Below, piece after piece: positions 8,318 through 32,183 of a stretch of 37,211 nt of DNA. The translations under genes and the position numbers were made by a program. The stretch comes from a virus. Location: IMG/VR virus record IMGVR_UViG_3300024314_000008, positions 1-37,211 of that record; one strand, written 5' to 3'. Numbering within the stretch: position 1 is the stretch's first letter; each line of letters starts with the position of its first letter. Under the pieces are notes generated by a model. It had not been told where the DNA came from and did not search any database. It saw nothing but the letters and a program-made list of their open reading frames with translations.

Positions 8318-8697
8318 TGGGCAAGTTGAAGGATTGGGTCGATGAAGATTGGGTCAGAATTGACAGCCAAGGTAATATCGCAGGTAAATGCGGTACTTCA
8401 AAGAATAAAAAAAATCCTGACAGGTGCTTACCTCGATCTAAAGCTAATAGTCTTAGCAAGTCTGAAAGGGCTTCGACGGCTCGTAAGAAAAAGCGCGAAG
8501 GCTCTAAAGGAAAGCAAGTGGTTTCAAACACCAAAGCCGCCAAAGTGGTAAAGAAAGGCGACGGTGGAGTAATTTCTACCAAACCTAAACGACCATTTAA
8601 TGGAAAATCACAAGCTGGTACAGCCATAGCTAGAGGTTGCGGCAAAGTCATGAACAACCGACGTAAACGAACAAAGGGATCGGTGACACAATCATGA
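8317..8697 (+). CDS. Basic conserved phage protein (CGTSKxKKxPDRCLPRSKA motif)
   Basis: This 126-aa strongly basic protein has two recognisable parts. Residues 6-45 carry W-V-D-E-D-W-V-R-I-D, then K-C-G-T-S and N-P-D-R-C-L-P-R-S-K-A, a pattern seen in uncharacterised phage proteins. The C-terminal end carries I-A-R-G-C-G-K-V-M-N-N-R-R-K-R-T-K, a tail that I have also seen as the end of other short phage proteins. The linker is lysine-rich. It looks like a fusion of two common small-phage-protein modules. A DNA- or capsid-binding role is only suggested by charge. Confidence 0.65.
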   Translation: MGKLKDWVDEDWVRIDSQGNIAGKCGTSKNKKNPDRCLPRSKANSLSKSERASTARKKKREGSKGKQVVSNTKAAKVVKKGDGGVISTKPKRPFNGKSQAGTAIARGCGKVMNNRRKRTKGSVTQS

Positions 8698-9281
8698 ACT
8701 TAGCCTTTTACAACCAACCTGTAGAAAAAGCTATTGTAGAAGAAATACTACAATGGTCTACAGAAGCTTTGGAAAAGCCTAGTTCGTTTTACAACGACTT
8801 ACCCCCGTGTCCGTATGCTCGTAAAGCTTGGATGGACGACAAAGTTGCCATTCTATTTAAGTATGATGACTCTTATCAAACCTTATATTCTTGTATATCC
8901 CAGTTCGACGATAATTTTGATTTAGTAATTATTGTAGACCTAGCTAACGATAAAGACCCTGAAGCATTCCACGATTACTTTTACGCACTTAATGAATTTA
9001 TTGCGGCGGGTACGTTTATTGATAAAGACATCTGGTTGATGGGGTTTCACCCTGACGATGAGATAACCGAAGCTGCCGAAGCTACTGCTATAGAGGCAGT
9101 AACTGACACAGAATACAGCATGATATTCGTACAACGATTGTCCAAGCTACAAGAAGCAGCAGACAAGTTGGACAAAAAGGGATATTATGATAGTTATGAT
9201 GGCGAATACAACGCTTGTGAGATATTTGACAAGCGAGAGCAATTATACAGGAGACTGAAAAATGGCGATGAAACCACGTAA
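8694..9281 (+). CDS. Conserved phage protein with PPCPYARKAW motif, function unknown
   Basis: This 195-aa acidic protein overlaps the previous gene by 4 bp (ATGA). It contains D-L-P-P-C-P-Y-A-R-K-A-W (about 36-47), a hydrophobic strand L-V-I-I-V-D-L-A (about 76-83) and K-D-I-W-L-M-G-F-H-P-D-D-E (about 112-124), then a helical C-terminus rich in E and Y. I recognise the set from marine phages. The C-P-[FY]-A motif is reminiscent of the DUF1415-type bacterial proteins, but that link is weak. Its acidic character contrasts with the basic neighbours. Whether it is in the virion is unknown. Confidence 0.65.
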   Translation: MNLAFYNQPVEKAIVEEILQWSTEALEKPSSFYNDLPPCPYARKAWMDDKVAILFKYDDSYQTLYSCISQFDDNFDLVIIVDLANDKDPEAFHDYFYALNEFIAAGTFIDKDIWLMGFHPDDEITEAAEATAIEAVTDTEYSMIFVQRLSKLQEAADKLDKKGYYDSYDGEYNACEIFDKREQLYRRLKNGDETT

Positions 9282-11365: not shown

Positions 11366-11818
11366 ATGGCTTTCAGCGGAAACTTCATGTGTACATCGTT
11401 CAAGAAAGAGCTATTGTACGGTGTCCACGACTTTGATCTCTCTTCGGGAGATGCTTTTAAAATTGCTCTTTACACCAACAGCGCCTCTTTCGATGCTACG
11501 ACTACTGCGTACACTACCAGTAACGAAGTAAGTGGAACAGGTTACACTGCTGGTGGCGGAGCTTTGACTAACGTCGATCCTACTTCATCCGGAACTACGG
11601 CACTAACGGACTTTCAAGACGAAACGTTCTCAAATGCAACAATTACGGCACGTGGGGCATTAATATATAATACTACTCCCAATACTACGTCACTTTCGGT
11701 AACCAACCCGAGTGTTGTAGTTTTGGATTTCGGCGCGGACAAAACATCCACCGCAGGTGATTTTACGATTGTTTTTCCAACTGCTGATGCAAGTAACGCG
11801 ATTATACGGATAGCGTAA
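11366..11818 (+). CDS. Conserved beta-rich virion structural protein
   Basis: This 150-aa protein begins with a conserved-looking block: F-K-K-E-L-L-Y-G-V-H-D-F-D (about 12-24) and F-K-I-A-L-Y-T-N-S-A (about 31-40). It continues with T/S/G-rich strands including N-E-V-S-G-T-G-Y-T-A-G-G-G. I recognise this pattern as a common structural protein in tailed phages of aquatic bacteria. It is coupled to the next, fibre-like gene by TAATG. Role in the virion (tail-associated or decoration) is inferred; no receptor or enzymatic motif is seen. Confidence 0.7.
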   Translation: MAFSGNFMCTSFKKELLYGVHDFDLSSGDAFKIALYTNSASFDATTTAYTTSNEVSGTGYTAGGGALTNVDPTSSGTTALTDFQDETFSNATITARGALIYNTTPNTTSLSVTNPSVVVLDFGADKTSTAGDFTIVFPTADASNAIIRIA

Positions 11819-12711
11819 TGGCTGACGTAATCGTCCCAATAGGCGGCTGGGGCCGTTCAGGTTGGGGCGCAGGCCCGTGGTCCCAGAGTGGGCTACCACA
11901 AGCTGCGGGTTCTGTAGGTTCAGTAACGGTTGTGGCGGAAGCCAACGTTCCGGTTACAGGACTACAAGCAACAGGTAGTGTTGGCAGCGTAACAATAAAC
12001 GCAGCAGCCAACGTGTCTGTAACAGGGGTAGCTGGTACTGGCCAAGTGGGCAGTGTCACTACAACGGCAGATGCCAATGTTAACGTTACAGGCGTAGCGG
12101 GAACAGGGCAAGTCGGTTCGGTCAGCATAACTGCTGGTGCGAACGTACCCGTCACCGGATTGGCCGGAACTGGAGCAGTAGGCTCCGTATCGGTCACCGC
12201 AGATGCAAACGTAAACGTTACGGGTGTGTCGGGAACAGGGGTCGTAGGCTCCGTAAGCGTCGAAGCTGGCGCAATTGTACCCGTCACAGGACTTGAGGCC
12301 ACAGGGTCCGTTGGTTCAGTAACGATTGTTGCAAAAGCCAATGTTTTCCCAACAGGTCTTCAAGCTACTGGTCAGGTAGGCGACGCCACTGTAGATGGCG
12401 AAGCCAATGTACCGGTAACAGGCTTGTCTGCGACAGGCACCACTGGATCAGTTTCAGTAAGAACGGGTCAGACAATTAACGTTGGTGGTGTGAGTGGAAC
12501 AGGTCAAGTCGGAAGTGTCACAGTAGAAAGTGATGCTGTAATAAATGTAATAGGAGTCAGCGCAACAGGTGGTGTCGGAAACGTACTGGTATACTCTAAC
12601 ATTGTCCCGGATCAAAATCCGGGTTATAGTGAGATAGATGTTAACCAGTCGCCGTCATGGTCGGAGGAAGAACCAACCCAGAGCGCAAATTGGACGCAAA
12701 TAGCAGCGTGA
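11818..12711 (+). CDS. Fibre-like protein of ten 22-residue repeats
   Basis: This 297-aa protein has three parts. Residues 1-30 hold a Trp/Gly motif (G-G-W-G-R-S-G-W-G-A-G-P-W). Residues 31-250 are ten consecutive 22-residue repeats of the form G-x-V-G-S-V-x-V-x-A-x-A-N-V-x-V-T-G-[LV]-x-[AG]-T, with a broken eleventh. The C-terminus carries S-P-S-W-S-E-E-E-P-T and S-A-N-W-T-Q-I. Regular repeats of this length and composition would suit a beta-solenoid or elongated fibre. The first repeat's A-A-G-S-V-G-S-V resembles the end of the 19790 product. It directly precedes the main tail fibre gene. The function is inferred to be adhesion or virion decoration. Confidence 0.75.
   Translation: MADVIVPIGGWGRSGWGAGPWSQSGLPQAAGSVGSVTVVAEANVPVTGLQATGSVGSVTINAAANVSVTGVAGTGQVGSVTTTADANVNVTGVAGTGQVGSVSITAGANVPVTGLAGTGAVGSVSVTADANVNVTGVSGTGVVGSVSVEAGAIVPVTGLEATGSVGSVTIVAKANVFPTGLQATGQVGDATVDGEANVPVTGLSATGTTGSVSVRTGQTINVGGVSGTGQVGSVTVESDAVINVIGVSATGGVGNVLVYSNIVPDQNPGYSEIDVNQSPSWSEEEPTQSANWTQIAA
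11908..12567 (+). repeat. Ten 66-bp coding repeats
   Basis: Each 66-bp unit encodes one 22-residue repeat of the fibre-like protein. Units differ at many third positions and at several amino acids, so the array is diverged rather than freshly amplified. The conserved G-S-V and V-T-G cores define the register. Confidence 0.85.
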
Positions 12712-17849: not shown

Positions 17850-19793
17850 ATGCCCTTACAAAAGTTACAGTTCAGGCCCGGAGTAAACAGAGAAACCACT
17901 TCGTATAGTAACGAGGGCGGTTGGTTTGACTGTGACAAAGTAAGGTTCCGTTTCGGCACCCCAGAGAAGATAGGCGGCTGGGAAAAATATTCAGGAAAGA
18001 GCTTTCTAGGCACTTGCCGGGCATTGAAACCATTCGTTGCACTAGATGGCGCAAGCTATTTGGGTGTCGGAACGCATCTAAAATACTACATTAACGAAGG
18101 TGGTGGTTATAACGACATCACTCCTATTCGTGCGACGACTGCTGCGGGTGACGTAACGTTTTCCGCGGTCAACGGCTCATCTACTTTAACAGTAACTGAC
18201 GTAAACCACGGTGCTAAAGAAAACGATTTTGTTACCTTTAGTGGCGCGGTAACACTTGGCGGTAACGTAACAGCCGCCGTTCTTAACCAAGAATATCAAA
18301 TATCTAGGATAGTAAACTCTAGTTCTTACGAAGTTTTGGCCAGAGAAGTTGCTTCACTCAACGACATTACCGTAAACGGTGTTTATAGCCCTACACTTGT
18401 TGTAGCTAATGGTTCCGATACGGGTAATGGTGGTAGTTCTGTTGTAGGCGCTTACCAAATTCAATCCGGTTTGGACACGACTGTCGCCGGAACGGGTTGG
18501 GGCGCAGGTACTTGGTCCCGTGGATCATGGGGTTCAGGCGCTAATCTGACCGCTGTAGGCGACATTTTGCGTATTTGGAGCCACGACAACTTTGGTGAAG
18601 ACCTTATTATCAACGTCCGTAACGGTGGTATTTACTACTGGGACAAATCTACCAGTTCAGCACCTTTTGCACCGGCAGTAGAAATATCTCAACTTGCTGG
18701 CGCAGACCCTACAACACCGACTATCGCAAAACAGGTCATGATTTCGGATCGTGACAGGCACGTTATTGTGTTTGGTTGTGATGCTCAAGACGATATTGGG
18801 GTACAAGACCCCTTACTTATTCGCTTTTCTGACCAAGAAAACCCTTTGGTATGGTCCGCACAAGCAACTAATACGGCTGGTGATCTACGGATCGGTACGG
18901 GCTCTGAGATAATCACGGCCCTCGAAACACGGCAACAAATACTGGTGTTTACCGATAAATCGCTACACGCCATGCAGTATTTGGGACCACCTTTCACGTT
19001 CGGTATCTCTATGATTTCCGAAAACATTACTATCGCTAGTCCTTTGTCCGCTATTGCGGTAGATGACATGGTGATGTGGATGGGTGAAGAAGAGTTCTAT
19101 ATCTACACTGGTCAGGTGCAAAAGCTACCATGCTCTGTCCGCGCCTACGTTTTTAACGATTTTAACCAAGACCAAGCTGAGAAAGTTACCGCAGCCGTAA
19201 ACTCCTCTTTTTCTGAAATATGGTGGTATTACCCGTCTGCTACAGTAACAAACGGGATAATGAACCAAGATATTGATAGATATGTTGTCTACAACTATCA
19301 GGAACAGGTCTGGTACTACGGAACATTGTCTAGAACGGCGTGGATTGACCGCGGTATTGGTCAATACCCTATTGCAGCAAGCTCTGACGGCTACCTTTAC
19401 TACCATGAATTTGGTCAAGATGACGGCAGCGTAAACCCACCAGCCGCTATTAGCTCCTACATTGAGAGTAGTGAAATGTCGATTGGTGCTGGAGACAACT
19501 TCGTGTTGTTGAGCAAGCTAATACCTGACGTGACGTTTGACGGTTCTAGTTCGCCGTCTCCAAACGTAGACTTTACTCTTGAAACCAGACGTTTTCCGGG
19601 CGAAGACTATACACAAACAACAAATAGCAATGTAATTCGTACCTCTACCGTGCCTGTAGAGCAGTTTACCAATCAAGTAAGACTGCGTTTGCGGGGTAGA
19701 TCGTTTGCATTAAAAATAGAATCAGACAATACCGGCGTAGAATGGAGACTAGGTACGCCGCGTGTTGAATTAAGACCGGATGGACGTAGATGA
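17850..19793 (+). CDS. Tail nozzle/stabilisation protein candidate (P22 gp10 / T7 gp12 type)
   Basis: This 647-aa, beta-rich protein starts P-L-Q-K-L-Q-F-R-P-G-V-N-R-E (2-15) with W-F-D-C-D-K-V-R-F-R-F-G (about 26-37), a start I know from marine phages. Repeated aromatic strands such as W-G-A-G-T-W-S-R-G-S-W-G-S-G (about 220), I-W-S-H-D-N-F-G-E-D-L and G-V-G-T-H-L-K-Y-Y-I fit a beta-propeller-like tail protein. It lies downstream of two adaptor candidates and upstream of the ejection proteins. I infer the nozzle or packaged-DNA stabiliser of a short-tailed virion. The same W-G-A-G-x-W-S motif occurs at the N-terminus of the repeat fibre at 11818. Confidence 0.65.
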   Translation: MPLQKLQFRPGVNRETTSYSNEGGWFDCDKVRFRFGTPEKIGGWEKYSGKSFLGTCRALKPFVALDGASYLGVGTHLKYYINEGGGYNDITPIRATTAAGDVTFSAVNGSSTLTVTDVNHGAKENDFVTFSGAVTLGGNVTAAVLNQEYQISRIVNSSSYEVLAREVASLNDITVNGVYSPTLVVANGSDTGNGGSSVVGAYQIQSGLDTTVAGTGWGAGTWSRGSWGSGANLTAVGDILRIWSHDNFGEDLIINVRNGGIYYWDKSTSSAPFAPAVEISQLAGADPTTPTIAKQVMISDRDRHVIVFGCDAQDDIGVQDPLLIRFSDQENPLVWSAQATNTAGDLRIGTGSEIITALETRQQILVFTDKSLHAMQYLGPPFTFGISMISENITIASPLSAIAVDDMVMWMGEEEFYIYTGQVQKLPCSVRAYVFNDFNQDQAEKVTAAVNSSFSEIWWYYPSATVTNGIMNQDIDRYVVYNYQEQVWYYGTLSRTAWIDRGIGQYPIAASSDGYLYYHEFGQDDGSVNPPAAISSYIESSEMSIGAGDNFVLLSKLIPDVTFDGSSSPSPNVDFTLETRRFPGEDYTQTTNSNVIRTSTVPVEQFTNQVRLRLRGRSFALKIESDNTGVEWRLGTPRVELRPDGRR

Positions 19794-20086
19794 GTAGAGG
19801 CTTAGTACAACCCTTATTCCCAAACGCGCCTTCTGACTATAACTCAGAGTATATGTCGGAAGTTGTCCGTGCTTTCTCTGTTTTTCTGCAACAAGTAAAC
19901 AACCCCGGTCCATGGCAAGCGTCAGCTTTGACTTTGCCAAACTTACAGACCGACAACTATAACCTTCCTCTTGGTGGTATTTTTCAGTACGGCGACGAAT
20001 TGCGCATAACTGTAGCTAACAAGCCGTACCTGAGAGGATCACAAGCAGCGGGGGCCGTGGGTAACGTCACGGTGACAATAACATGA
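19790..20086 (+). CDS. Small structural protein ending in one fibre-type repeat
   Basis: This 98-aa protein overlaps the nozzle gene by 4 bp (ATGA). The body contains L-V-Q-P-L-F-P-N-A-P (5-14) and F-S-V-F-L-Q-Q-V-N-N-P-G-P-W. The last residues, S-Q-A-A-G-A-V-G-N-V-T-V-T-I-T, closely match the A-A-G-S-V-G-S-V-T-V unit of the ten-repeat protein at 11818. A shared module suggests that the two proteins contact each other or a common partner. Otherwise the function is unknown; the location fits a tail accessory protein. Confidence 0.65.
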   Translation: MSRGLVQPLFPNAPSDYNSEYMSEVVRAFSVFLQQVNNPGPWQASALTLPNLQTDNYNLPLGGIFQYGDELRITVANKPYLRGSQAAGAVGNVTVTIT

Positions 20087-20316
20087 GTGATGGAACAATA
20101 ATTAATATGCCTGACGGCAGTCAGTGGAAACCTTCCACTAGCACAGACATGGTACATTGTGCTAACTGTACTAATAAGGTCGATACTCCGGAGGAAATAC
20201 TGTCCTATCCGAGTGGAAATTGCCCTGAATGTGGTTCTTCATGGACTGGAGGAGAGAACCGAAGTACAATAATACAGGTAACCATGCCTGAAAGCATTAC
20301 TGGTGGAGCGGGATAA
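20083..20316 (+). CDS. Small zinc-ribbon protein
   Basis: This 77-aa protein overlaps its upstream neighbour by 4 bp (ATGA). It has two intact C-x-x-C pairs: C26-A-N-C29 and C47-P-E-C50, separated by 17 residues, then G-S-S-W. This is the layout of a zinc ribbon, which would be a small structural or binding knuckle. The rest is short and acidic to neutral. Its stop overlaps the start of the LysM protein gene (TAATG). A role in virion assembly or DNA contact is possible but unsupported by anything beyond location. Confidence 0.7.
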   Translation: MSDGTIINMPDGSQWKPSTSTDMVHCANCTNKVDTPEEILSYPSGNCPECGSSWTGGENRSTIIQVTMPESITGGAG

Positions 20317-22151
20317 TGGCAAAAGAAGCATTAATGGTTGAAGAAACCGAAGAATTAGAAGAACTGGAAGTCCCGACCGGTGGTATTGGCGATTTTGTCA
20401 TGGAAGATGACGAACTCGAAGAAGTTTACGGAGATGACTCCGAAACAGATGCTAAAGAAGAGTTTGGTGACAACGGTATAGCACAATTTCCTGCGCTTGC
20501 AGAGCGCATGGCTAAGTATGGTCGAAACGAAGACAACATGCTGGCCCACGTTGCAGAGGGTGAATTAGTCATTCCAGCACAATTCCTCGAAGACGAGGTA
20601 ATGAAGCAACGTATCTACGATATTCTTACAGAAGCCGGGGTTGAAGACCCTGAAGCTTATGTTGTTGGCGCAGAAGCTAACGATCTTAACCCTACTACAG
20701 GCCTACCTGAGTTCTTTTTGAAGAAGTTATTCAAAGGAATTGGTAAAGCTATTAAGAAAGTGGTTAAGGCGGTTGTTAAAGTCGTCAAGAAAGTCGCTCC
20801 TATTATCCTACCTATTGCATTGGCGTTCACGCCTCTCGGACCAATTTATGGTGCCGCGATGGGTTCAGGTATTGGAACACTTCTAAACGGTGGAAGCATC
20901 AAAGATGCCCTCAAGTCTGCACTTATATCGGGTGCGGTAGGTGGTGTTACTGCCGGATTCACCGGATCAGGTTCCTTTACTCAAAACATATCTGATGCTG
21001 CTTCAGGGTTTGGCGCTCGTGTAAGTCAAACAGTTTCTGGTGCAGGCTCTACCTTTACCGGTGGCGGATTTACTGGAGAAGGCAACTTGTTTAGTGATTA
21101 TGTGCCTACACCGGGTGCAGAAGTTGCTTCCGCCGCGGAATCTGCGACGTCACTCACTACGCAACCAATTCAACAAGGCGATACTTTGAGTCAAATTGCG
21201 CAAGCAAATAATACTTCTGTTGACGCTTTGATGGCGGCTAACCCGCAAATTACTGATCCAAACATGATTATTGCAGGCGAAAGCCTCAATATTCCGCCTG
21301 TAAGTGCCGGTGGTACATCACTTTCTGAAAGTGTAGTGAAAAACGTCGGAGAAGATGTAGCCGAAGCAGCGGCAGGAGAAACCGCAGAGCGTAGTTTCTT
21401 AGAGAAAACAGGCGATTACATGTTCCGTGGTGGTCAATCACCCGAGGCTATAGCGAGCGCTAAAGAAATTGCTGGGCAAGAATATATTGCGGACATGGCG
21501 GCTAAAGGTCTTAATGCGTCTGAAGCGGGTCTTAATGCCGCTAAAGCAGCCGCGGGACCCGGTATGCTAACTAGGTTTGGTCCTACCGCACTCGCGGGAA
21601 CAACATTAGCGGCAGGGGCGGGTTTCTTTGATGTTCCAGAGATAGAGCAAGCTAACTTTATAGACTACAATCCTGACGGTACACCTACTACAGGTAGAGA
21701 CCTGATCGACGCTGATCCCGGTAAGTACCTTGTACATAACTTAGGTCAGTTGCAGTTAAATCCAGAAACAGGTGAGTACGAGGCTGTTGGTAATCAAACT
21801 GCTTTTGAAGAAGAAGACTTAGTAGGTTATGCCCCACCTGAACAAGTAGCGGTGTTGCCCCCACAAAACCAACAAAACTACTTAACAGCTAGTACCCCCG
21901 GCGGACCATTTGCACGTCCCTACGTGACAGCCGCAGAGGGTGGACCGATCTTCCCGCGTCGCACAGGCGGCATTGAACCCACTGAAGGTACTCCGGGTGA
22001 AGATAGCGTTCGAGCCATGTTAATGCCCGGTGAGTTTGTAATGACTACCGATGCAGTACGTGGTTTAGGAAACGGAAATCTTAACAACGGAATCCAGAAT
22101 ATGTATTCAGTAATGCGTAATCTTGAGAGCCGTGGGAGGGCTACGGCGTAA
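20316..22151 (+). CDS. Candidate ejection protein: amphipathic cationic helix plus LysM domain
   Basis: This 611-aa protein has an acidic N-terminus, then N-M-L-A-H-V-A-E-G-E-L-V-I-P (about 73-86). A strikingly cationic amphipathic segment (136-160, K-K-L-F-K-G-I-G-K-A then repeated V-V-K units) runs into a hydrophobic stretch (161-171) and glycine-rich sequence. Residues about 284-330 form a LysM peptidoglycan-binding domain (G-D-T-L-S-Q-I-A, then D-A-L-M-A-A-N-P, then G-E-S-L-N-I-P). The C-terminus carries A-E-G-G-P-I and D-S-V-R-A-M-L-M-P-G-E-F-V-M. I infer an internal virion protein that crosses the envelope at DNA entry: LysM for the wall, amphipathic helix for the membrane. Confidence 0.7.
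   Translation: MAKEALMVEETEELEELEVPTGGIGDFVMEDDELEEVYGDDSETDAKEEFGDNGIAQFPALAERMAKYGRNEDNMLAHVAEGELVIPAQFLEDEVMKQRIYDILTEAGVEDPEAYVVGAEANDLNPTTGLPEFFLKKLFKGIGKAIKKVVKAVVKVVKKVAPIILPIALAFTPLGPIYGAAMGSGIGTLLNGGSIKDALKSALISGAVGGVTAGFTGSGSFTQNISDAASGFGARVSQTVSGAGSTFTGGGFTGEGNLFSDYVPTPGAEVASAAESATSLTTQPIQQGDTLSQIAQANNTSVDALMAANPQITDPNMIIAGESLNIPPVSAGGTSLSESVVKNVGEDVAEAAAGETAERSFLEKTGDYMFRGGQSPEAIASAKEIAGQEYIADMAAKGLNASEAGLNAAKAAAGPGMLTRFGPTALAGTTLAAGAGFFDVPEIEQANFIDYNPDGTPTTGRDLIDADPGKYLVHNLGQLQLNPETGEYEAVGNQTAFEEEDLVGYAPPEQVAVLPPQNQQNYLTASTPGGPFARPYVTAAEGGPIFPRRTGGIEPTEGTPGEDSVRAMLMPGEFVMTTDAVRGLGNGNLNNGIQNMYSVMRNLESRGRATA
21168..21305 (+). other. LysM domain coding segment
   Basis: The segment encodes G-D-T-L-S-Q-I-A-Q-A-N-N-T-S-V-D-A-L, then A-N-P-Q-I and I-I-A-G-E-S-L-N-I-P. 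This is a full-length LysM module, the peptidoglycan or chitin binding domain found in bacterial wall hydrolases and some phage virion proteins. Confidence 0.85.
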
Positions 22152-25100
22152 TGGCTGAACAATCCACACAGATAGTCCGCGAAGCACCGGAAATCGAGGC
22201 TTATAAACTAGGCCTCTTACAATCTGCAAAAGCACTTGCTGACCAAGGACAAACTATTCCGCCCTATATGGTTGCGGAAATGTCTGGTCTACAGATCAAG
22301 GCAACTGAATTAGCAGAAGCGGGTATTGGCGGGTATCAACCTTATTTAGCAGAAGCTGGCTTTACGCTAGGCGACGCACAGACCGCCATGGGCGGTGTAA
22401 TGACCGACGCTAAACCGTTCCAAACGGAAGCGTCAGCACTCATGACCGCAGGCGCGGGAAATATTCCCGGACAAGTTGAAGCCGCACAAACAGGTATTGC
22501 GGGCGCTATTACTGCGGGCGGCACAGCAACGACCGCCGCACAAAATGCTTTAGATGCTGCTGCCTTGGGTGGTAGAACTGCTGCCGGTGGTGGTCAGACT
22601 GCTTTAGGTACTGCCGCTGCTAATATTCCCGGCGTAATTTCAGATACCGTTGCAGCTAACACCGCGGCAAATACCGTAGCGGGTCAAGCTGTTGCTGATG
22701 CGCGGTATTCTGGTCGGGAAACAGAACAAAAACGTCGTTTAGGGGCTGTTGACGAAGCGTCTAGGAACTTGGCGGCTACCGTAGGACAAGCGGGTTTAAC
22801 GCAAGCGGGTGCTACACAAACAGGATTAAACGAAGCTGCCGCAGCCGCGCAACAAGCCGCTACTGCGGGTCAAACCGGTCTTAATGCTGCCACTTTAGCC
22901 GGACAACAAACGGCTACCACCGGACAAGCCGGTTTAAGTGCCGCGGCGCGAGAAGCTTTAAACGCTAGGGCGCTTGCCCAACAAAGCGGACAGGATTTAG
23001 GAACGGTAGCGGCTAACGCAAGACAACAAGCTCTTACTGGACAAACCACTTTAGGTTCTGCTGCCGGAACTGCACAAGGACAAGCTCGTGACGCGGGAGC
23101 CGGAGCGCAAGCCTCGGCCCTACAAGCAGGTACAGATTCTGCTGCGGCAATTGCGAACGCACGTCAAGCCGTTACCGGCGCGGGTGCAGGTCTTACTCAG
23201 GCAGGCATTGGTGGTTTACAAGCGGCGCAAGAAGCCGGTACTGCCACAAATGCAGCCATTCAAGCTGCAAGAGCCCAAGCTGCTGGTGGACAACAAGCTC
23301 TTGGCGCAGCCGGATTAGCCGGTGCAGATGCTGCTGCTCAAGCAGGATTAGGTGCAAGACTAGGTGCCGCGGGAACTGCGGCTGGATTAGGCGGAATAAG
23401 TGGACAAGCTAGATCAGACGCACAAGCGGCTGGTGCTGGCGGAATAGGCGCTTATGAAAAAGCTATTGGCGGAATTGACGATGTTGCGACAGCGGCTAGA
23501 AATGTTGCAGGCCAAGCTCGAACTGGCGGACAAACAGCAGCGCAACAAGCTGCTCAACAGACTCAAACCGCAATTTCCGGCGCTAGGGGCATCACATCCG
23601 ATGCTGCACAAGCTTTACAGCAAGCCGGAGCATTAGGAACACAAACAGCACAATCAGGTATTGCTGGTTTAGCGGGTACTACTGGTGCATACGATCCTGC
23701 TTCGGCTGGTTCGTTTATGAATCAGTATGAAGATGCAGCCGTTCAGCAAGCTTTAGCGGATATTCAACGTGCAGGTAATATACAAGCCAATCAAGTTGGC
23801 GCACAAGCAGTTGGAGCGGGTGCCTTTGGCGGATCACGTCAGGCGGTAGCTGAACAAGAATTACAAAGAAACATACTAGAACAGCAAGGTCGTACTGCTG
23901 CGGGTATGCGTCAGCAGGGCTTTGAAAGTGCTTCACAAAGAGCGCAACAAGCCTTTGAATCACAACAAGCTAGGGCTCAACAAGCCGCACAACTTACTGG
24001 CGCACTGGGGGCTCAAGGTTCTCAGGCAGGTATGGCCGCGGCACAAGCTGCGGGTACATTAGGTTTGTCTGCGGAAGAACTTGCAGCACGAACCGCACAA
24101 CAACAAGGTCAATTGGGACTATCTGCCGAGCAATTGGCAGCTACTACCGGTATGTCCGCAGAACAATTGGCGCAACAGGGTTTGACTCAAAGCGGTCAAT
24201 TAGGTCTGTCAGCGTTTGGTCAGCAGGGTCAGTTAGCGCAAGGTGCAAGCCAGTTAGCGTCTTCAAACTTGGCTCAAGCGGGTCAGTTAAGTCAATCTGC
24301 CGAGCAATTAGCCGGTCAGCTTGGTATGTCTTCTGCTCAATTGCAGGGTCAGTTAGCTGGACAAGCTGCTCAAATGGGTATTTCCACAGAACAATTAGCC
24401 GGACAGTTAATTAACCAGCAAGCACAGACAGGTATGTCGGCCAACCAGTTGTTGGCTCAAACTGCACAAAATGCGGGTCAGTTAGGTCTATCCGCAGAAC
24501 AGTTAGCGGCGAACACGGCTCAACAACAAGCTCAAACCGGTATATCTGCGCAACAATTAGCGGGTCAGCTTGGTATTAGCGCATCACAATTAGAAGGCCA
24601 ATTGGCTGGACAAGCCGCGCAGATGGGTATTTCAGCCGAACAGCTTGCGGGTCAGTTGATTAATCAACAGGCTCAGACCGGTATGTCGGCAGAGCAGCTT
24701 GTTTCTCAGTCCGGTATGACTGCGGCACAACAGGGCGCTCAACTCGGAATGCAAGCAGCGCAACTTGGTCAAGCAGGAGCGCAACAAGGCGCTCAAATGG
24801 GCCTAAATGCAGCACAATTAGCACAGTCTAGCGCACAGCAAGGCGGGCAGATGGGTCTAGCGGCTCTAAATCAGGCCGGTCAATTAGGTTTAAATGCAGA
24901 GCAAATGGCGTCAGCCAATGCAAACGCACTGGCTTCAACAGGCATGAACCTACAGTCGCTTGCCGCACAAACAGGCATGAGTGCTGCGCAGTTAGCGGGT
25001 CAATTAGGCCAACAAACAGGCGCGTTAGCCATGCAGGGTGTAAACCAGCAGGCGGACATTGCAAACAGAGCCGCGCAACTTGGTATATCTGCCGAGCAAT

Positions 25101-25618
25101 TGGCCGGTCAGTTGGCCAGTCAATCTGGTCAGTTGGGTCAAGGCCAAGCACAAATGGCTATGCAGGGTTCACAAGCAGGTGGGGCTCTTGGTTTACAAGG
25201 TTCCGAACTACAAGGCCGAATGGGCGAAGGTATCGCGGGTCTTGGAACAAGTTACGGTCAGCTTGCGCTACAACAAGGCGAAGGTTTAAGTCAGCTTGGC
25301 TTACGTCAAGGTGCCTTGGGTGAACTGCAACAAAACTTAGGTCAGAAAGAAGCTGGATTCCTGTTCGATGTTGGCAAACAACAGCAAGCGCAAGATCAAG
25401 CGGTTCTGGAAGCTACTCGTAAGACACAAGTCGAGCAGCAGTATGAGCCTTATCAGCGTGTAGGTTTCTTATCAGACATTTATAAGGGTGCGCCGTCTAG
25501 CCAGATGGCAATCTCACAACAATCAGGTGGTGGCGTATCACCCGCTCAGTCTATATTAGGTTTGGGCGTAGCAGGCTTGTCGGCAGCGGCAGGCGCAGCA
25601 AAAGCGGGGTTATTTTAA
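22151..25618 (+). CDS. Large A/Q/G-rich repeat virion protein (candidate internal/ejection protein)
   Basis: This 1155-aa protein begins with I-V-R-E-A-P-E-I-E-A-Y-K-L-G-L-L (8-23), which I know from marine phages. A long A/G/Q/T repeat region follows. A conserved centre near residues 514-640 contains S-F-M-N-Q-Y-E-D-A-A-V and G-A-F-G-G-S-R-Q-A-V-A-E-Q-E-L. Next come many repeats of about 11 residues (G-[LI]-S-A-E-Q-L-A-x-Q type), expected to form long helices. The C-terminus carries Y-E-P-Y-Q-R-V-G-F-L-S-D-I-Y-K-G. Position next to the LysM protein suggests an internal virion protein. A tape measure role is possible but less likely, as no other long-tail gene is seen. Confidence 0.65.
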   Translation: MAEQSTQIVREAPEIEAYKLGLLQSAKALADQGQTIPPYMVAEMSGLQIKATELAEAGIGGYQPYLAEAGFTLGDAQTAMGGVMTDAKPFQTEASALMTAGAGNIPGQVEAAQTGIAGAITAGGTATTAAQNALDAAALGGRTAAGGGQTALGTAAANIPGVISDTVAANTAANTVAGQAVADARYSGRETEQKRRLGAVDEASRNLAATVGQAGLTQAGATQTGLNEAAAAAQQAATAGQTGLNAATLAGQQTATTGQAGLSAAAREALNARALAQQSGQDLGTVAANARQQALTGQTTLGSAAGTAQGQARDAGAGAQASALQAGTDSAAAIANARQAVTGAGAGLTQAGIGGLQAAQEAGTATNAAIQAARAQAAGGQQALGAAGLAGADAAAQAGLGARLGAAGTAAGLGGISGQARSDAQAAGAGGIGAYEKAIGGIDDVATAARNVAGQARTGGQTAAQQAAQQTQTAISGARGITSDAAQALQQAGALGTQTAQSGIAGLAGTTGAYDPASAGSFMNQYEDAAVQQALADIQRAGNIQANQVGAQAVGAGAFGGSRQAVAEQELQRNILEQQGRTAAGMRQQGFESASQRAQQAFESQQARAQQAAQLTGALGAQGSQAGMAAAQAAGTLGLSAEELAARTAQQQGQLGLSAEQLAATTGMSAEQLAQQGLTQSGQLGLSAFGQQGQLAQGASQLASSNLAQAGQLSQSAEQLAGQLGMSSAQLQGQLAGQAAQMGISTEQLAGQLINQQAQTGMSANQLLAQTAQNAGQLGLSAEQLAANTAQQQAQTGISAQQLAGQLGISASQLEGQLAGQAAQMGISAEQLAGQLINQQAQTGMSAEQLVSQSGMTAAQQGAQLGMQAAQLGQAGAQQGAQMGLNAAQLAQSSAQQGGQMGLAALNQAGQLGLNAEQMASANANALASTGMNLQSLAAQTGMSAAQLAGQLGQQTGALAMQGVNQQADIANRAAQLGISAEQLAGQLASQSGQLGQGQAQMAMQGSQAGGALGLQGSELQGRMGEGIAGLGTSYGQLALQQGEGLSQLGLRQGALGELQQNLGQKEAGFLFDVGKQQQAQDQAVLEATRKTQVEQQYEPYQRVGFLSDIYKGAPSSQMAISQQSGGGVSPAQSILGLGVAGLSAAAGAAKAGLF
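24300..24697 (+). repeat. Duplicated ~50-residue block with diverged codons
   Basis: Blocks at about 24300-24450 and 24548-24697 encode nearly the same protein stretch, including identical L-A-G-Q-L-I-N-Q-Q-A-Q-T-G-M-S-A. The DNA differs at many third positions (for example TTAATTAACCAGCAA versus TTGATTAATCAACAG). The copies are old, and the amino-acid sequence is conserved. Confidence 0.75.
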
Positions 25619-28389
25619 TGAATAGAGAAGTAATGGGCAGACAGATGTTTGCTAAAGGAGGCGCAGCCTTTCCAGACCTAAGTGGTGATGGAAACGTTAC
25701 GCAAAAAGATATTTTGATGGGTCGTGGGGTTATCCCCATGCAGGACGGCGGTATGGCACCTATGCCAATGCCCGCGGCTCCCGGACCACAAATGATGCCT
25801 CCCGGTTTACCTGCCATTGACCCCGGTTCGGTAGATATTAATGAAGCTGCACAAGGTGCTATGCAACAAGGTATCAATCCCGCTGAGTTAGAGGGAATGC
25901 TTACTCAGTATGCCAGTCAAATGGATGACTTAGAAAACGCTGAAGATTACGAAACCGTTATTAACGGGATTCGAGGCGATACAGCACCTATTGAACAGCG
26001 TTATCAAGAATTAGCGCAAGTGGTTGGACCTGAAGATTCGCAAGCCACCCCCGAATCAGTTTTGACTCTGCTTCAGCCTGTAATGCAAATTGCAGCGGTA
26101 GATCAAGGCATTGGAGGTTTAGCTGCCGAAGAGATGTCGGCCCCAGTAGAAGGGGCGATGGCAGAAGGTATTATGTCCACTGTTAACATGGGCGCTCCAG
26201 AAGCTCCTGTACAGGTCCCCGGAGGGCCTGCTCCTGTAAATTTTAACCAAGGCGGCGCGGTCCAGTATATGGCACCGGGCGGTGTCGTCGATCCCGCTCT
26301 TCAGCGCCAGCAAACGTTATTTGACCAGCAAAGAAACCTTTATGGGCAATTACTTGATCCTGCGCAGCAAGAAGCAGATTTGGCCGACCAAAAAGATTTA
26401 ACTCAAGCGCAAATGCTATTTGACGTAGCGCAAGGTGCTTTGATGTTTGCTTCTCCCGGTGAAAGAAATATGAGTCCGGCGGAAAAACTAGCGCAGTCGT
26501 TTGCCCCTGTTTTAGGTAACATAGGCGAAAGAGCGGGTGCGTTTGGTAAGTTTAAACAAGCGCAAAAGGCAGAAGGTCGTCAACTAGATCAAATGGCACT
26601 GCAAAGCGCCAGTCAGCTATACGGTGCAGAACGTGCCTCTCAACTATCCAGAGATGACAAGCCTATCACAGACACGTTCGTAGTCACGATTACAGATGCA
26701 GATGGTAACGAAACAGAAACACAACGCCCGCTAACTTCTGGTCAGTATAATAATCTGGTTACAGAATTTGGTATGGGTAATGTTACCGTTGCAAAAGTAT
26801 TTAAACCGTCCGCAACAAGTAAGGCTCAAAACTTTATTGTAAACGGCGTCTTACGGTCCGCGGTTCCCGGAACTCCGGGCTATGCTTTAATAATGCAACA
26901 AGGCGGAGTAAGTGCGAGCAACGTAGACCCCAGTACATTAATGAAGCGTAAGCAATATACGCTTACTCAAGACTTGACCGTTGGAGACAAGGTTTATCCC
27001 GCAGGTTCCTCTCCCTTCTTTAGCGACATGGAGTTTTCTCAATTAGTTCAAAGTTTTGGTAACGACGTGCTGACAGAATATGTAGCTCCTGTTAACGATA
27101 ATGACTTCTTTAGTAAATTTGGCATGAGCAAAACAGACTTTGAAGCTTTGCCGACAGATAGCCAGCAATACTTACAAGGTTTGCCAATACTTACCGACGA
27201 AGATTACTTCAAGAAATTTGGTTTAGCTAAACAAGACTTCTTGTTGCTTCCTGAAAATGATCGAAAACGTTTAATTGGCATAGAGCCGGAATACCGCTTT
27301 GATAAAGTGGATAACGGAACCACTATCGACATTATCCGTACAGATGTTAACGATCCTGCGGCTAAAGGCGTAAGTATCTTTAGCAGCGAAATTGCAGGTA
27401 CACCTAGTTTATTCCGCGTTACGGTAATGAACGACGAGGGTGTGATGATACCTTCTGTTGCTGACCTATCAACGCCGGAAGGCAAGAAGCTGATGGCTAA
27501 AGTCAACGAAATGAACCAGACAATGCCCGGTTCAGCCGTCATGCAAAAAATTGGTACAGAAAGTAACCAAGTTGCAGCCTTCTTGGTGCCAAACAGTAAA
27601 CCCGGTGGCGGCGCAGCCCTCCGCATGTCCTTTGATGGCGGTAAAACGTACATTGGCGACGACGGAATGCCTAGATTGTTACCCACAGAAGTTATTCCTG
27701 TTGGCGATACCGTTGCTTACGAAGCTTACAAGCGTGAGAAAGTACGTGCCGATGCTAGGAAATTCCTCAGTGCAAATGATACAAATTTGGAAGCAGGGAT
27801 TGGAACAGAACAGTATGCCCCCGGTAAGGGCTTTGAACCGATTACTAAGCAAGACAAGAAGCTGGTTAAAGACGTGTTGGCTGAAGTACGTGCCGGTACG
27901 GGTTTTTGGTCTTCTGTCTTCGCGGGTACGAACGCTGTAGTGGGTGGCGCTATAGCTCCCGAAACGTTCTCTGAATTATTTAAGGAAACGGAGGAAGGGC
28001 GACAGTTTACCAAGCTAGTATACGTTTTAGGACGTTCTGCTTTGGCCTCCTCGCCACGGTTCGCGGTCACCGACCTAGAAGTTACAGGTCAATTATTCCC
28101 GAACCCGGATACCTTCTTTAGTAACCCTGTTACTGAGGCAAACAAGATTGTAAGCTTGATGGAAGCATTAGACTCCGAAGAACTACGTCTACAAAGAATG
28201 AGAGCTTCTGATTCACCACAAGATTCTGCGGTTCTTGCAACGGCTGAACAAAAACTGGGTGAAATTGCTCGACTTAAACAGCTTCTTGGACCTGTTTCTC
28301 AAATGGCGGGGACCGCTTCTGTAACAGACTTGTCCGGAGCGAAGAATTTGTTGAACAAAAAAGGTATGAATTTGAGCGGGAGTAACTGA
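25618..28389 (+). CDS. Large virion protein with dockerin-like motif and 33-residue repeats
   Basis: This 923-aa protein is coupled to its upstream neighbour by TAATG. The N-terminus holds A-K-G-G-A-A-F, then a dockerin/EF-hand-like D-L-S-G-D-G-N-V-T-Q-K-D-I-L (about 21-34), then Q-D-G-G-M-A. A helical part with Q-G-G-A-V and P-G-G-V-V follows near residue 210-225. Residues 493-525 and 526-558 are two 33-residue repeats (D-F-F-S-K-F-G-M-S-K-x-D-F-x-x-L-P and D-Y-F-K-K-F-G-L-A-K-Q-D-F-x-x-L-P). The remainder is soluble alpha/beta with no recognised enzyme. I infer an internal or tail protein of the same module as its neighbours. Confidence 0.62.
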   Translation: MNREVMGRQMFAKGGAAFPDLSGDGNVTQKDILMGRGVIPMQDGGMAPMPMPAAPGPQMMPPGLPAIDPGSVDINEAAQGAMQQGINPAELEGMLTQYASQMDDLENAEDYETVINGIRGDTAPIEQRYQELAQVVGPEDSQATPESVLTLLQPVMQIAAVDQGIGGLAAEEMSAPVEGAMAEGIMSTVNMGAPEAPVQVPGGPAPVNFNQGGAVQYMAPGGVVDPALQRQQTLFDQQRNLYGQLLDPAQQEADLADQKDLTQAQMLFDVAQGALMFASPGERNMSPAEKLAQSFAPVLGNIGERAGAFGKFKQAQKAEGRQLDQMALQSASQLYGAERASQLSRDDKPITDTFVVTITDADGNETETQRPLTSGQYNNLVTEFGMGNVTVAKVFKPSATSKAQNFIVNGVLRSAVPGTPGYALIMQQGGVSASNVDPSTLMKRKQYTLTQDLTVGDKVYPAGSSPFFSDMEFSQLVQSFGNDVLTEYVAPVNDNDFFSKFGMSKTDFEALPTDSQQYLQGLPILTDEDYFKKFGLAKQDFLLLPENDRKRLIGIEPEYRFDKVDNGTTIDIIRTDVNDPAAKGVSIFSSEIAGTPSLFRVTVMNDEGVMIPSVADLSTPEGKKLMAKVNEMNQTMPGSAVMQKIGTESNQVAAFLVPNSKPGGGAALRMSFDGGKTYIGDDGMPRLLPTEVIPVGDTVAYEAYKREKVRADARKFLSANDTNLEAGIGTEQYAPGKGFEPITKQDKKLVKDVLAEVRAGTGFWSSVFAGTNAVVGGAIAPETFSELFKETEEGRQFTKLVYVLGRSALASSPRFAVTDLEVTGQLFPNPDTFFSNPVTEANKIVSLMEALDSEELRLQRMRASDSPQDSAVLATAEQKLGEIARLKQLLGPVSQMAGTASVTDLSGAKNLLNKKGMNLSGSN
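27094..27291 (+). repeat. Two tandem 99-bp coding repeats
   Basis: The units at 27094-27192 and 27193-27291 encode 33-residue modules of the form D-x-D-[FY]-F-x-K-F-G-[ML]-x-K-x-D-F-x-x-L-P. Identity is clear at the protein level, weaker in DNA. Confidence 0.75.
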
Positions 28390-31300
28390 TGGCTGAAGAA
28401 GAAATTGTAATAGCCGAAGAGACTGAAGTAGAGGTAACGCCTCCTGTAAACACAGGTCCTCTGCGCATGAGCTTTACACCGCAAGAGTTCGTTGATTTAT
28501 ACGATACTTTTGAAGAGGAAGCGTCAAAACCAAACTCCGAGTTTCGGTCCGCGGAACAAGGTTTTGCGTTTAGCTTAGTAGAAAGCCTCAAATATGACCC
28601 TTATCTTAGTGATAAGGTCGATTACAATTTGTTGCGCACAGGTGAAGCACCTATTTTGGCAGAACTAGGCCTACAAGGTCAGGCTTTAACCGACAAACAA
28701 ATAATAGAACTATTTGCACAAGACGATCAGGGTCGTGATATTGAAGCGGACCCCGGTTTCTTTCAAGGAGTAAAAAGACGTGCTTTACCCGGTTTGGGTT
28801 TTGCAGGTGGTTTCTATGCTGGCGCACAAGCGGGTAACCTTTCGGTAGCTGGCGTTCCTCCCGTAACACCGTGGACCGCGGCGGTGCGTATAGGTGTTCC
28901 TTTGTTTACCGGAACTGTTGGCGGTATAGCCGCTTCGTTTGCAGGGGACAAAGCAACGGATGCTTTGATGGGCGAAGAGCCTATTGTTTTACCGGGAGCA
29001 AGATACTACGAAGCTGGTAAGACGTTTGCAGATACTTTACCTTTTGTACTAACGCCGTGGGCTGTGCCCGCTAAAGGTTTTAGTCTAGGTGGTCAACAAG
29101 CGTTAAATCAATCTCAAAATTTTATTGGTCCTATTATTAAAGGGCAATCACGCTCACCTCTTTCCGCTAAATTTGTAGGCGGCATTGAAAAAATGAGTGG
29201 CGGAATGGGTCGAGTGGCCCGTGAAAACCCTTATAGAACAGCAGCAGTTGAGGGCGGCGCACTTATTGGCACAACTTTACTTGCAGGAAAAGCAGAAGAT
29301 ATTGCTCCGGGGAACCCGTGGGTACGTTTTGGCTTTGAAACCACCGGTGGTATAAGCGGTGCCTTAGTTGCTGACTTAGGCGCAAACAGAGTTCCTGCTT
29401 TGTTTAAGTGGAGTGGTCGCGGTATAAAAAACTTGTACAAAAGAATAATGAACCCGGACAACGCAGATAGTTTTGGTCTCACGGAAAGTGATAAAGAAAG
29501 CGTTGCTACTTTTATTACGGAACAACTTGAAAAAAACGGTGAAGATCCTTTAGCTATTCTCGAAATGCTTAATGATCCAAAGTTTGACCGGTTTATGATT
29601 GCCGAAGATGGTAGTCAAATTCAGTTAGACCCCGCTACCCGAGCAGCTAGTGTGACATTACTAGGATTACAAAACCAATTTGCTTCGGCTAATCCCGCGG
29701 TAGGTAGCGATGCCACAAGTCGAATGAAATCCTCTATAGACGCTCTGCGTCGTGGATTACTGGCGCTTTATGCTGATGGTTCTCCAGAAGCCTTGCAAGA
29801 TGCCGCTATCATACAAACTTCTTTGTTTGAGGGTGTTTTAGATTCAAAACTAGCCTTGGCTACGGACAACACTATTAAAGCCATGAAGAAGGTTCGTGGT
29901 GACACGCCGGATGCAGACCTTACTTCTGCTCAAAACATTTTTGATACTTTAAAATCTCAATACACCGCAGGTCGAGCGGAAGAATCTAGTTTGTGGAAAA
30001 AAATACCTCAAAACCTAGAGGTTAATCAGTTTATTGATGAAACAGGTACTACTCAAAGCATCCCAAATTTTATAACAAACTACAACGGAAACATGGACGA
30101 GCTTTTACAAGAAGCTAAAGATGTTATTGAAGGTGGTGATTTAAAAATTCTAAAACGCTTTGTAGAACGTAAAACGCAAGAGCTAGGCATAGGTCAAGAC
30201 GCCGCTGACGGAGTAGAGTTTGACACAGGTGTAACAATAGGTGAATTAAACAAAGCGAGAAGTTCTGCTTTAAATATCGCTAAAAAGTTGTACTCCGAAA
30301 GCCGAAACAATGAAGGCCGTATTGCCTCGGAATTTGCCGACGCCTTGTTAGCAGACATGAACAGTATGCCTTTAGGTGAAAACCAAGCATATGACACGGC
30401 TCGAAGTTTTTCAGCAGCGTTTAATGACGTATTTACTCGCGCATATGCCGGAGAAATATTAGGAACTAAAAAGAACGGCGCACCCAGTGTGTCTATAGAC
30501 ACACTTGCTAACAACCTAATGAAGGGTGATGCTGCTTTTATGAAAGCCGCCGCATTGGATGGCGTAGCTCAGTTTCAAGCGGGTCAAGCCTTAACAAACC
30601 TTTTGGAATCAGAAACAGGTGGACAGTTCGCGGCTCAAGGGCAGCGTTTGATGGCCGACCTTCAAGAGCAATATGATCCCGTTACAGGTGTTATAAACCT
30701 TCCCGAAATGCGTAAGTGGTATTCACGCAACCACGAACTTATTCAAACTGTTCCTAATTTAGACGGACGAATTGTTGCGGCAATAAACACTGCAAATGAT
30801 ATTCGTGCGGGCGAAGAAAACTTGCTACGAGTAGTAAGGGCTAACACTCTAAATGAAGACGGCACCTTAAACACCGGGGCGTTATCCACTTGGATGAACA
30901 ACGAAAACAACAAACGTTTGATGGAATTGTTTCCGGCGGTAAGGGACGATCTTAAAGATGTTCGTAAAGCGTCTAATTTAATTACGCAAACCAAAAAACA
31001 AAACGCTTTTGATCTTAAAAACGATGTAGATCAAGTGGGCTTGTCCGAGCTATTGCCGGATAAGACTTCTAACGCCACTACGGCGGTTACTTCCGCCTTA
31101 TCGGCTAACCAGAATAGACCTTTTGCGATTTTAAACAGGTATATGAGGATGGTCGATAATGTTGGCGAAGACGGGTTCACTGTTTTGCCAAATACCGGCG
31201 GTGACAAACGTTTTACCAGTCCAAATGCGGGTAAAACGTGGACGCAAGCCGACCTCCGAAACGGTATGCGTAGTGCTATTTATGACAGCATTTTTCAAGT

Positions 31301-32183
31301 AAGTTCTAACGGAGAGCGTTTTAGCCCCGCTGCCGCTTACAACAAACTGTTTGCTCCACACCCAAAAGTAAAGGAGCTTTCTGTTGCTGATTGGATGTTA
31401 CAAAATGATCTAGTAGGTGCTGACCAGTTAAAAGATACAAAAGAATTTCTTCGTAAAATGGCCGAAATCGAGATGTTTACGATGAAAGCTAAACCGGGCC
31501 AAACCGATGTTCTTTATAAAGACTTAGGTGAAGGACTAAAGCTTGCCGCTGCAATGGGCGGTTCTGCGGTCGGTTCTAGTCTTAGAAACCAAATTGGTCT
31601 GAACAGTGGCGCAGGTGAGATTATATTTGCTGGACGTTTTGCCAAGTTTGGTCAAGACGTAGCTCAACGTTACTTTGCTGAATTACCCCAATCTCTGCAA
31701 GCCAACAGAGTACAGATAATTTTAGAAAACGAAGAACTGCTGAAGCAAGCCCTTAGAAAAGGTAAAACTCAGCGTGAAAAAGACGCTTTGGCTGCTCAGT
31801 TTGCAGAAATGGCTATTCAAAACTACGTCATCATGCCAGTAAGACGATTGGGTGGTGAATCCATACAAGAAACATTCTCTTCAGACCAAAGTCTGGAGGG
31901 CCAAGAAATTCCCCCTGTGGAAGTTCCCACCGGAAGCGGGGCGAATCTGCCTACTACGAATAACAATGCTGCACCGGTTGTGCCGGTACAAAAATCAGCA
32001 CCCGTTGTTCCTAGTGGGCCACCTATTCAGCAACCTGAACCAGAAAATTTTAATCCAAACCCTAGTAGGTTTGACCAAAGTTCGGTTGCACCCAGCGGTC
32101 CTGTGGACCGGACTAAGTTTGCAGCTTTATTCCCAGAAGACCGAGAACTTCTCGGCATCGGTAGTTTAATGGGGCAAGTGTAA
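28389..32183 (+). CDS. Very large candidate ejection (internal virion) protein
   Basis: This 1264-aa protein is coupled by TGATG to the previous gene. Residues 1-30 are acidic. Small-residue hydrophobic stretches occur at about 130-150, 165-185 and 280-300 (for example G-F-A-G-G-F-Y-A-G-A-Q-A-G), which could insert into a membrane. The long middle is helical and charged. A proline-rich linker follows, and the end reads D-R-T-K-F-A-A-L-F-P-E-D-R-E-L-L-G-I-G-S-L-M-G. Size, position last among the large virion genes and these stretches fit a T7 gp16-type ejection protein. No transglycosylase motif was recognised, so the wall-cutting activity of gp16 cannot be claimed. Confidence 0.6.
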   Translation: MAEEEIVIAEETEVEVTPPVNTGPLRMSFTPQEFVDLYDTFEEEASKPNSEFRSAEQGFAFSLVESLKYDPYLSDKVDYNLLRTGEAPILAELGLQGQALTDKQIIELFAQDDQGRDIEADPGFFQGVKRRALPGLGFAGGFYAGAQAGNLSVAGVPPVTPWTAAVRIGVPLFTGTVGGIAASFAGDKATDALMGEEPIVLPGARYYEAGKTFADTLPFVLTPWAVPAKGFSLGGQQALNQSQNFIGPIIKGQSRSPLSAKFVGGIEKMSGGMGRVARENPYRTAAVEGGALIGTTLLAGKAEDIAPGNPWVRFGFETTGGISGALVADLGANRVPALFKWSGRGIKNLYKRIMNPDNADSFGLTESDKESVATFITEQLEKNGEDPLAILEMLNDPKFDRFMIAEDGSQIQLDPATRAASVTLLGLQNQFASANPAVGSDATSRMKSSIDALRRGLLALYADGSPEALQDAAIIQTSLFEGVLDSKLALATDNTIKAMKKVRGDTPDADLTSAQNIFDTLKSQYTAGRAEESSLWKKIPQNLEVNQFIDETGTTQSIPNFITNYNGNMDELLQEAKDVIEGGDLKILKRFVERKTQELGIGQDAADGVEFDTGVTIGELNKARSSALNIAKKLYSESRNNEGRIASEFADALLADMNSMPLGENQAYDTARSFSAAFNDVFTRAYAGEILGTKKNGAPSVSIDTLANNLMKGDAAFMKAAALDGVAQFQAGQALTNLLESETGGQFAAQGQRLMADLQEQYDPVTGVINLPEMRKWYSRNHELIQTVPNLDGRIVAAINTANDIRAGEENLLRVVRANTLNEDGTLNTGALSTWMNNENNKRLMELFPAVRDDLKDVRKASNLITQTKKQNAFDLKNDVDQVGLSELLPDKTSNATTAVTSALSANQNRPFAILNRYMRMVDNVGEDGFTVLPNTGGDKRFTSPNAGKTWTQADLRNGMRSAIYDSIFQVSSNGERFSPAAAYNKLFAPHPKVKELSVADWMLQNDLVGADQLKDTKEFLRKMAEIEMFTMKAKPGQTDVLYKDLGEGLKLAAAMGGSAVGSSLRNQIGLNSGAGEIIFAGRFAKFGQDVAQRYFAELPQSLQANRVQIILENEELLKQALRKGKTQREKDALAAQFAEMAIQNYVIMPVRRLGGESIQETFSSDQSLEGQEIPPVEVPTGSGANLPTTNNNAAPVVPVQKSAPVVPSGPPIQQPEPENFNPNPSRFDQSSVAPSGPVDRTKFAALFPEDRELLGIGSLMGQV

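Follow-up and report, generated by a model that had tools for sequence, protein, structure and literature searches.

A candidate entry protein of short-tailed phages with a conserved cationic helix, a tape-measure-type C-terminal motif and an optional LysM module

Introduction

Can a single phage protein handle both the cell wall and the membrane when the genome enters the host? The question is raised by P0001, a 611-residue protein encoded in an IMG/VR virus record of 37,211 bases, the whole of which was analysed and is called the window here. The original prediction described P0001 as a virion-type protein in which a cationic amphipathic helix (residues 136–160) runs into a hydrophobic stretch and is joined to a LysM module (residues 284–330), and proposed that one molecule deals with both wall and membrane at entry. 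T7 gp16 unites a peptidoglycan hydrolase and membrane-spanning helices in one protein, and wall domains swap between ejection proteins (PMC8954989). The mycobacteriophage TM4 tape measure carries an optional, dispensable peptidoglycan-hydrolase motif that aids infection of stationary cells (PMC1796659).

Results

Anatomy of P0001 and sampling of its family

The ATG of P0001 overlaps the stop codon of the preceding gene (TAATG). The protein is acidic overall, with a net charge of −47 and a total of 38 Lys and Arg residues, and could be divided into the following features.

20316..22151, + strand: P0001 (611 aa), an ORF and the first gene of an ejection-type cassette
20475..20714, + strand: conserved N-terminal module, residues 54–133 (AHVAEGELVIP hairpin, helix, VVGAEAN..NPTTGLPEF)
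20715..20801, + strand: cationic amphipathic helix, residues 134–162 (from hydrophobic moment, charge and conservation)
20802..20963, + strand: hydrophobic segment and glycine zipper, residues 163–216 (PIILPIALAF..GAAMGSGIGTLLNGG..KDALKSA)
20964..21377, + strand: hypervariable A/G/S/T-rich linker, residues 217–354 (from pairwise alignments between sister proteins with and without LysM)
21168..21296, + strand: LysM module, an accessory cassette, residues 285–327 (Pfam PF01476)
21921..22148, + strand: most conserved block, residues 536–611 (tape-measure-type motif DSVRAMLMPGEFVMTTDAVRG and C-terminal helix)

Aligned family members share one order of parts: an acidic N-terminus, a conserved module with NPxTGLPEF at its end, then the cationic helix, the hydrophobic/glycine-zipper segment, the hypervariable linker and the C-terminal block, which is the best conserved part. 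In the clade of the window protein, a short block around EKTGDYMFRGG precedes the C-terminal block. The N-terminal module, with invariant residues G82, E83, P87, G118, N125, P126, G129, E132 and F133, was predicted by AlphaFold to form a β-hairpin and a helix (pLDDT up to ~83). Outside the LysM module the AlphaFold models were of low confidence (mean pLDDT 54 and 59); a second, deeper model of the core had a pTM of 0.31, too uncertain for a fold search, and a fold search with the full P0001 model was informative for the LysM only. AHVAEGELVIP (20544–20576) resembles AMLMPGEFVMT (22014–22046), also within P0001; an internal repeat was rejected, the hhalign alignment of the two being not significant (P=0.13).

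One scan of IMG/VR yielded 338 relatives of P0001, 80 of which were kept; scans with other seeds added more. A scan of genome contigs revealed 30 family loci in metagenome-assembled bacterial bins. Two loci, L006 and L020, both from metagenome 3300050343, encode proteins 92–99% identical to P0001 that are split by frame changes, probably sequencing errors.

P0001 lies in an ejection-type cassette

The neighbouring genes that bear on the role of P0001 are listed below.

17850..19793, + strand: nozzle (P22 gp10-type stabilisation) protein, three genes upstream of P0001 (phrog_3287, E=2.1e-70)
22151..25618, + strand: cassette member 2, an Ala/Gln-rich protein of 1155 aa, homologous to proteins of DSL-LC04 (294 aa), HTVC023P and HTVC027P
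25618..28389, + strand: cassette member 3, 923 aa (DSL-LC04 homologue, E=6.5e-81)
28389..32183, + strand: cassette member 4, 1264 aa (DSL-LC04 homologue annotated as DNA transfer protein, E=8.3e-110)
1845–2216: holin

The nozzle gene, which occurs in 126 phage records by tblastn, marks the marine phage of P0001 as one with a P22 gp10-type short-tail nozzle. The order nozzle, small genes, P0001 type, Ala/Gln protein, 923-aa type and large DNA-transfer type recurs in DSL-LC04 and, for the most part, in the pelagiphages HTVC027P and HTVC023P. This four-gene layout after the nozzle resembles podoviral ejection modules, and P0001 occupies a position in the late cassette like that of podoviral ejection proteins. 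The Ala/Gln-rich protein gave a weak match to a DNA ejection protein family (phrog_4287, E=1.9e-4). A helicase gene lies further downstream on the opposite strand, and among those window proteins that were put through Pfam and PHROG scans no wall hydrolase came to light.

The family profile matched proteins encoded between the nozzle and Ala/Gln genes in all three phages: the "tail tape measure protein" of DSL-LC04 (OR003939; E=2e-82), HTVC027P gp82 (E=1.1e-21) and HTVC023P gp79 (E=1.6e-4). The first two resemble P0001 in having both the cationic helix and, in the C-terminal region, the tape-measure motif, whereas HTVC023P gp79 is divergent and has no obvious cationic helix; all three lack a LysM, and their linkers are shorter or longer than that of P0001. 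The "tail length tape measure protein" of Caulobacter phage GB2A (gp065) likewise follows a phrog_3287-type gene and has a short Lys run, a Gly zipper and the C-terminal DSIKANLSDGEYVIDA motif, again without LysM; the cassette order is comparable, and the last cassette protein of GB2A has a lytic transglycosylase domain (SLT, E=3.3e-17). Homology to LUZ24 proteins was considered and rejected, the nozzle alone being matched.

Several features of the cassette were noted in passing. The 1155-aa Ala/Gln/Gly protein is about four times as long as its homologues in DSL-LC04 (294 aa) and HTVC023P (279 aa), and its conserved pieces fall at model positions 1–81, 496–624 and 1047–1155, which points to two added A/Q-repeat blocks of ~420 residues each; homologues in the window clade reach 1354 aa. 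Pfam assigns two stretches of the 923-aa virion-type protein to the villin headpiece family (PF02209, E=3.9e-8, above cut-off), an actin-binding fold that is unexpected in a phage. Directly upstream of P0001 and overlapping its start, 20083–20316 encodes a 77-aa zinc-ribbon-like protein (CANC..CPEC); a gene annotated as zinc ribbon is found close by in DSL-LC04 as well.

A tape-measure motif in the C-terminal block

The C-terminal region of P0001 contains the motif GPGT..SDSIPA-LS-GEF-V, which it has in common with tape-measure proteins of siphoviruses, and its GGI..GTPGEDSVRAMLMPGEFVMTTDAVRG part matched the tape measure gp16 of phage Douge (8zdo_S) twice (E=5.1e-7). Only the last 42 residues of that tape measure are resolved (PMC13033339), and these exclude the motif copies. 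As a tblastn query against the phages collection, whole P0001 gave no match, but the C-terminal piece of a more consensus-like relative found 279 phage records; among the matches listed, most were annotated tape measures. Unlike the very long helical proteins that set the tail length of long-tailed phages, however, P0001 has only 611 residues and varies in length through a filler linker. Among the window proteins searched with Pfam and PHROG, none could be recognised as a tube protein. The simplest reading is that the C-terminal motif would dock the protein in the tail or portal channel. As had been predicted, P0001 is likely to be a virion or ejection-type protein, judging by gene order, by the cassette found also in other phages and by the tape-measure-like motif.

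The cationic helix and glycine zipper form part of the family core

Residues 136–160 (KKLFKGIGKAIKKVVKAVVKVVKKV) have an Eisenberg moment of 0.785 at 100 degrees and a net charge of +10, and none of 10,000 shuffles of the same residues reached so high a moment. Ten of the 38 Lys and Arg residues of P0001 fall within residues 134–162. Among the 9174 25-residue segments of 24 window proteins, a moment of at least 0.6 together with a net charge of at least +6 was found in 14, all of them in P0001. The hydrophobic stretch that follows has its best 19-residue Kyte–Doolittle mean at residues 153–171 (1.86), with 1.74 at 160–178. The amphipathic helix and the hydrophobic stretch into which it runs are thus both borne out. 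AlphaFold modelled the helix region as helical at low confidence.

All 55 distinct members of the first scan have the cationic helix, and the helix, the glycine-zipper hydrophobic segment and the C-terminal block are kept in the 103 relatives scanned. In an alignment of 63 members, the helix has a net charge of at least +5 and a median moment of 0.79, and the best 19-residue hydrophobicity is at least 1.6 in 51 of the 63 (family median 1.74, against the P0001 maximum of 1.86); A181, G183, G185, L189, G192, D197 and A198 are invariant in the zipper. Helix lengths in this alignment fall into classes of 16 (n=12), 23 (n=17), 27 (n=13) and 34 (n=18) residues, which cover 60 of the 63 members; the three exceptions have 33, 36 and 42. 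The differences between classes (4, 7, 7, 11, 11 and 18) are all near whole helical turns, indicating that insertions and deletions have left the polar and apolar helix faces aligned, although the members share ancestry and the number of independent events is therefore small. This phase-keeping argues for a functional helix, whose partner could be membrane, DNA or protein.

A protein partner is the basis of one alternative, that P0001 is a non-ejected assembly factor or minor capsid or tail protein, in which the helix packs on other virion proteins and wall binding by the LysM is limited to adsorption or lysis. Phase-keeping lengths also suit a coiled coil or a packed helix, and no direct sign of ejection was found. 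However, the gene sits inside an ejection-type cassette, and the helix is strongly cationic rather than of mixed charge and is followed by the hydrophobic zipper; we consider this alternative improbable, the least probable of those weighed here.

DNA as the partner is a more serious, if still doubtful, possibility: the helix may bind DNA or the tail channel and not a membrane, and may grip the DNA end there in the manner of T7 gp7.3, P0001 being a plug and assembly scaffold that is ejected first. T7 gp7.3 is an ejected tail-channel protein whose C-terminal residues 84–98 bind the nozzle and whose N-terminus is mostly positive, and DNA gripping in the tail channel has been proposed for it (PMC11784390). 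It shares a cationic amphipathic helix with P0001, the P0001 gene comes just after the nozzle gene and the C-terminus is the most conserved part. T7 Protein 7.3 was also the best PDB match of the core profile, at an E-value that is not significant (0.14) and over 35 residues rather than the full length, and a host range and adsorption protein family (phrog_1320) matched residues 139–161 (E=0.041). The gp7.3 match is nevertheless weak and confined to the low-complexity helix, T7 gp7.3 is a protein of only 99 residues for which neither a glycine-zipper block nor a LysM nor a tape-measure motif is reported, and the extended hydrophobic glycine-zipper segment fits a membrane better than DNA.

The LysM module resembles carbohydrate-binding LysMs

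Pfam placed PF01476 at residues 285–327 (E=3e-11; score 43.5 bits, cut-off 20.9), and AlphaFold predicted a β-α-α-β arrangement at residues 281–326 with its elements in order and a block pLDDT of 81–90. The LysM module was therefore upheld by domain search, model and fold search alike, and of the structure prediction that had been suggested for the helix and LysM region, the LysM part was confident and the helix part was not. The nearest LysM folds were a Clostridium CBM50 with GlcNAc3 (7r1l_A, rmsd 1.0 over 44 columns) and Ecp6 with chitotetraose; GlcNAc-binding LysMs were nearest by sequence as well as by fold. From these likenesses, the LysM of P0001 appears to be of the carbohydrate-binding type and would bind glycan, in line with the predicted wall binding.

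LysM folds also serve as structural parts of the baseplates of Mu, A-1(L) and T4 (PMC11915804, PMC10966104). Since the linker of P0001 tolerates very different content, its LysM might likewise be a structural or neutral insertion with no glycan binding. We regard this as unlikely: the LysMs of A-1(L) and of contractile injection systems rank far below the carbohydrate-binding ones, and apart from LysM no Pfam domain turns up repeatedly in the family (103 members scanned), which suggests use rather than drift.

The LysM module is an optional part of the family

By Pfam, a LysM was present in 6 of 49 and 1 of 54 members, or 7 of the 103 scanned. The remaining 96 lack it, some of them being ~70–77% identical to P0001 over the whole protein, so that the union of wall and membrane handling in one molecule does not hold as a fixed property. 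A LysM-targeted search, biased by design, added three further LysM-bearing members (L243, L250 and L259). Sister proteins differ in the module: L013 has it and L206 does not, and P0001 has it while its sisters L005, L007, L010 and L012 do not.

A tree for which the conserved regions alone were used required 6 LysM changes in the first set, at least 3 of these being forced, and 8 in an enlarged set, with at least 5 forced; the tree has long branches, and the changes may be gains or losses. A single clade of LysM members was rejected (p-AU 9.6e-5). Identities of core and module were discordant: P0001 and L230 are 76% identical in the core and 38% in the LysM, and P0001 and L243 are 36% and 70% identical, respectively. 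The discordance and the repeated changes on the tree indicate that the tolerant linker houses the LysM as a mobile accessory cassette. By family comparison, the cationic helix belongs to the core, and the LysM is an optional extra with several gains or losses behind it.

An otherwise different protein of L234 has a LysM 77–78% identical to that of L013. In this 809-aa phage protein (L234:1750–4179), the LysM is set in Ser/Gly linkers and occurs together with a DDIPAQLSDGEYVVPA motif and a C-terminal block, GGCCFIMLEARYGDG; here the GE-V motif and LysM have been paired independently. The idea that the large cassette protein of LysM-less relatives might have a transglycosylase domain was rejected, none being found by Pfam in five homologues; a crude motif scan, by which divergent ones would be missed, gave none either.

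A model for P0001 at genome entry

From the observed anatomy, conservation, accessory LysM, gene order and motif sharing, P0001 is most likely a tail-channel or ejected protein with the LysM as an optional cell-wall tether. The fuller reading that we prefer, to which we assign a probability of about 0.5, is that P0001 sits in the tail channel until adsorption releases it, that its helix and zipper then enter a host membrane and that the LysM, where present, tethers it to peptidoglycan. P0001 would belong, as a virion protein, to the machinery with which a short-tailed phage delivers its genome, docked in the tail or portal channel by its C-terminal block. The cationic helix and glycine zipper would be the working part, released first on adsorption and inserting into a host membrane next to the nozzle, aiding envelope crossing, and the long flexible middle linker would let P0001 reach into the periplasm. 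In the lineages that have picked it up, including that of the window phage, the LysM would tether the emerging protein to peptidoglycan glycan strands, making passage more efficient without being essential. Against this reading, we found no virion proteomics for any family member, and the low-confidence models outside the LysM leave room for the helix to lie buried in an assembly; sequence comparison also counts against it, in that close relatives do without LysM and P0001 gave no match to the ejection proteins T7 gp14, gp15 and gp16 or P22 gp7, gp20 and gp16 in PHROG and PDB searches.

T7 gp16 and gp14 would be work-alikes of P0001, handling wall and membrane at entry, although the LysM would bind rather than cut and the overall architecture differs. 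Since T7 gp16 already unites the two tasks, the earlier claim of novelty stands for the particular combination of helix and LysM and not for the idea. TM4 is similar to P0001 in having an optional wall-acting module in a tape-measure-type protein, but TM4 is a siphovirus and its module is an enzyme rather than a binder. In the open literature, where most subscription journals are missing, we found neither a LysM in a podoviral ejection protein nor a description of a family with the P0001 layout. Tentatively, these proteins may represent an undescribed entry family of short-tailed phages, with a tape-measure-type dock, a helix/zipper inserter and a LysM-swapping bay that makes wall tethering switchable and host-tuned.

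If the preferred reading is true, it would name a likely first-out protein for a common marine group of short-tailed phages that includes pelagiphage relatives and whose structural genes are mostly unannotated. A common motif would also tie podoviral entry proteins to tape measures, and the natural sister pairs with and without LysM would allow the value of wall binding at entry to be measured.

Further observations in the window

A dockerin-like calcium motif, DGNGDGRITSRDALIF (Pfam E=0.038) and, by eye, DLSGDGNVTQKDILMGRG, was seen in 37–1842 and at the start of 25618–28389; gp79 of pelagiphage HTVC103P has a similar dockerin-like motif along with a tape-measure motif near its C-terminus. 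In addition, 11818–12711 encodes a protein of ~20-residue repeats (GVAGTGQVGSVTxxAxANVxV), and L234 has a similar repeat protein at 8390–9130.
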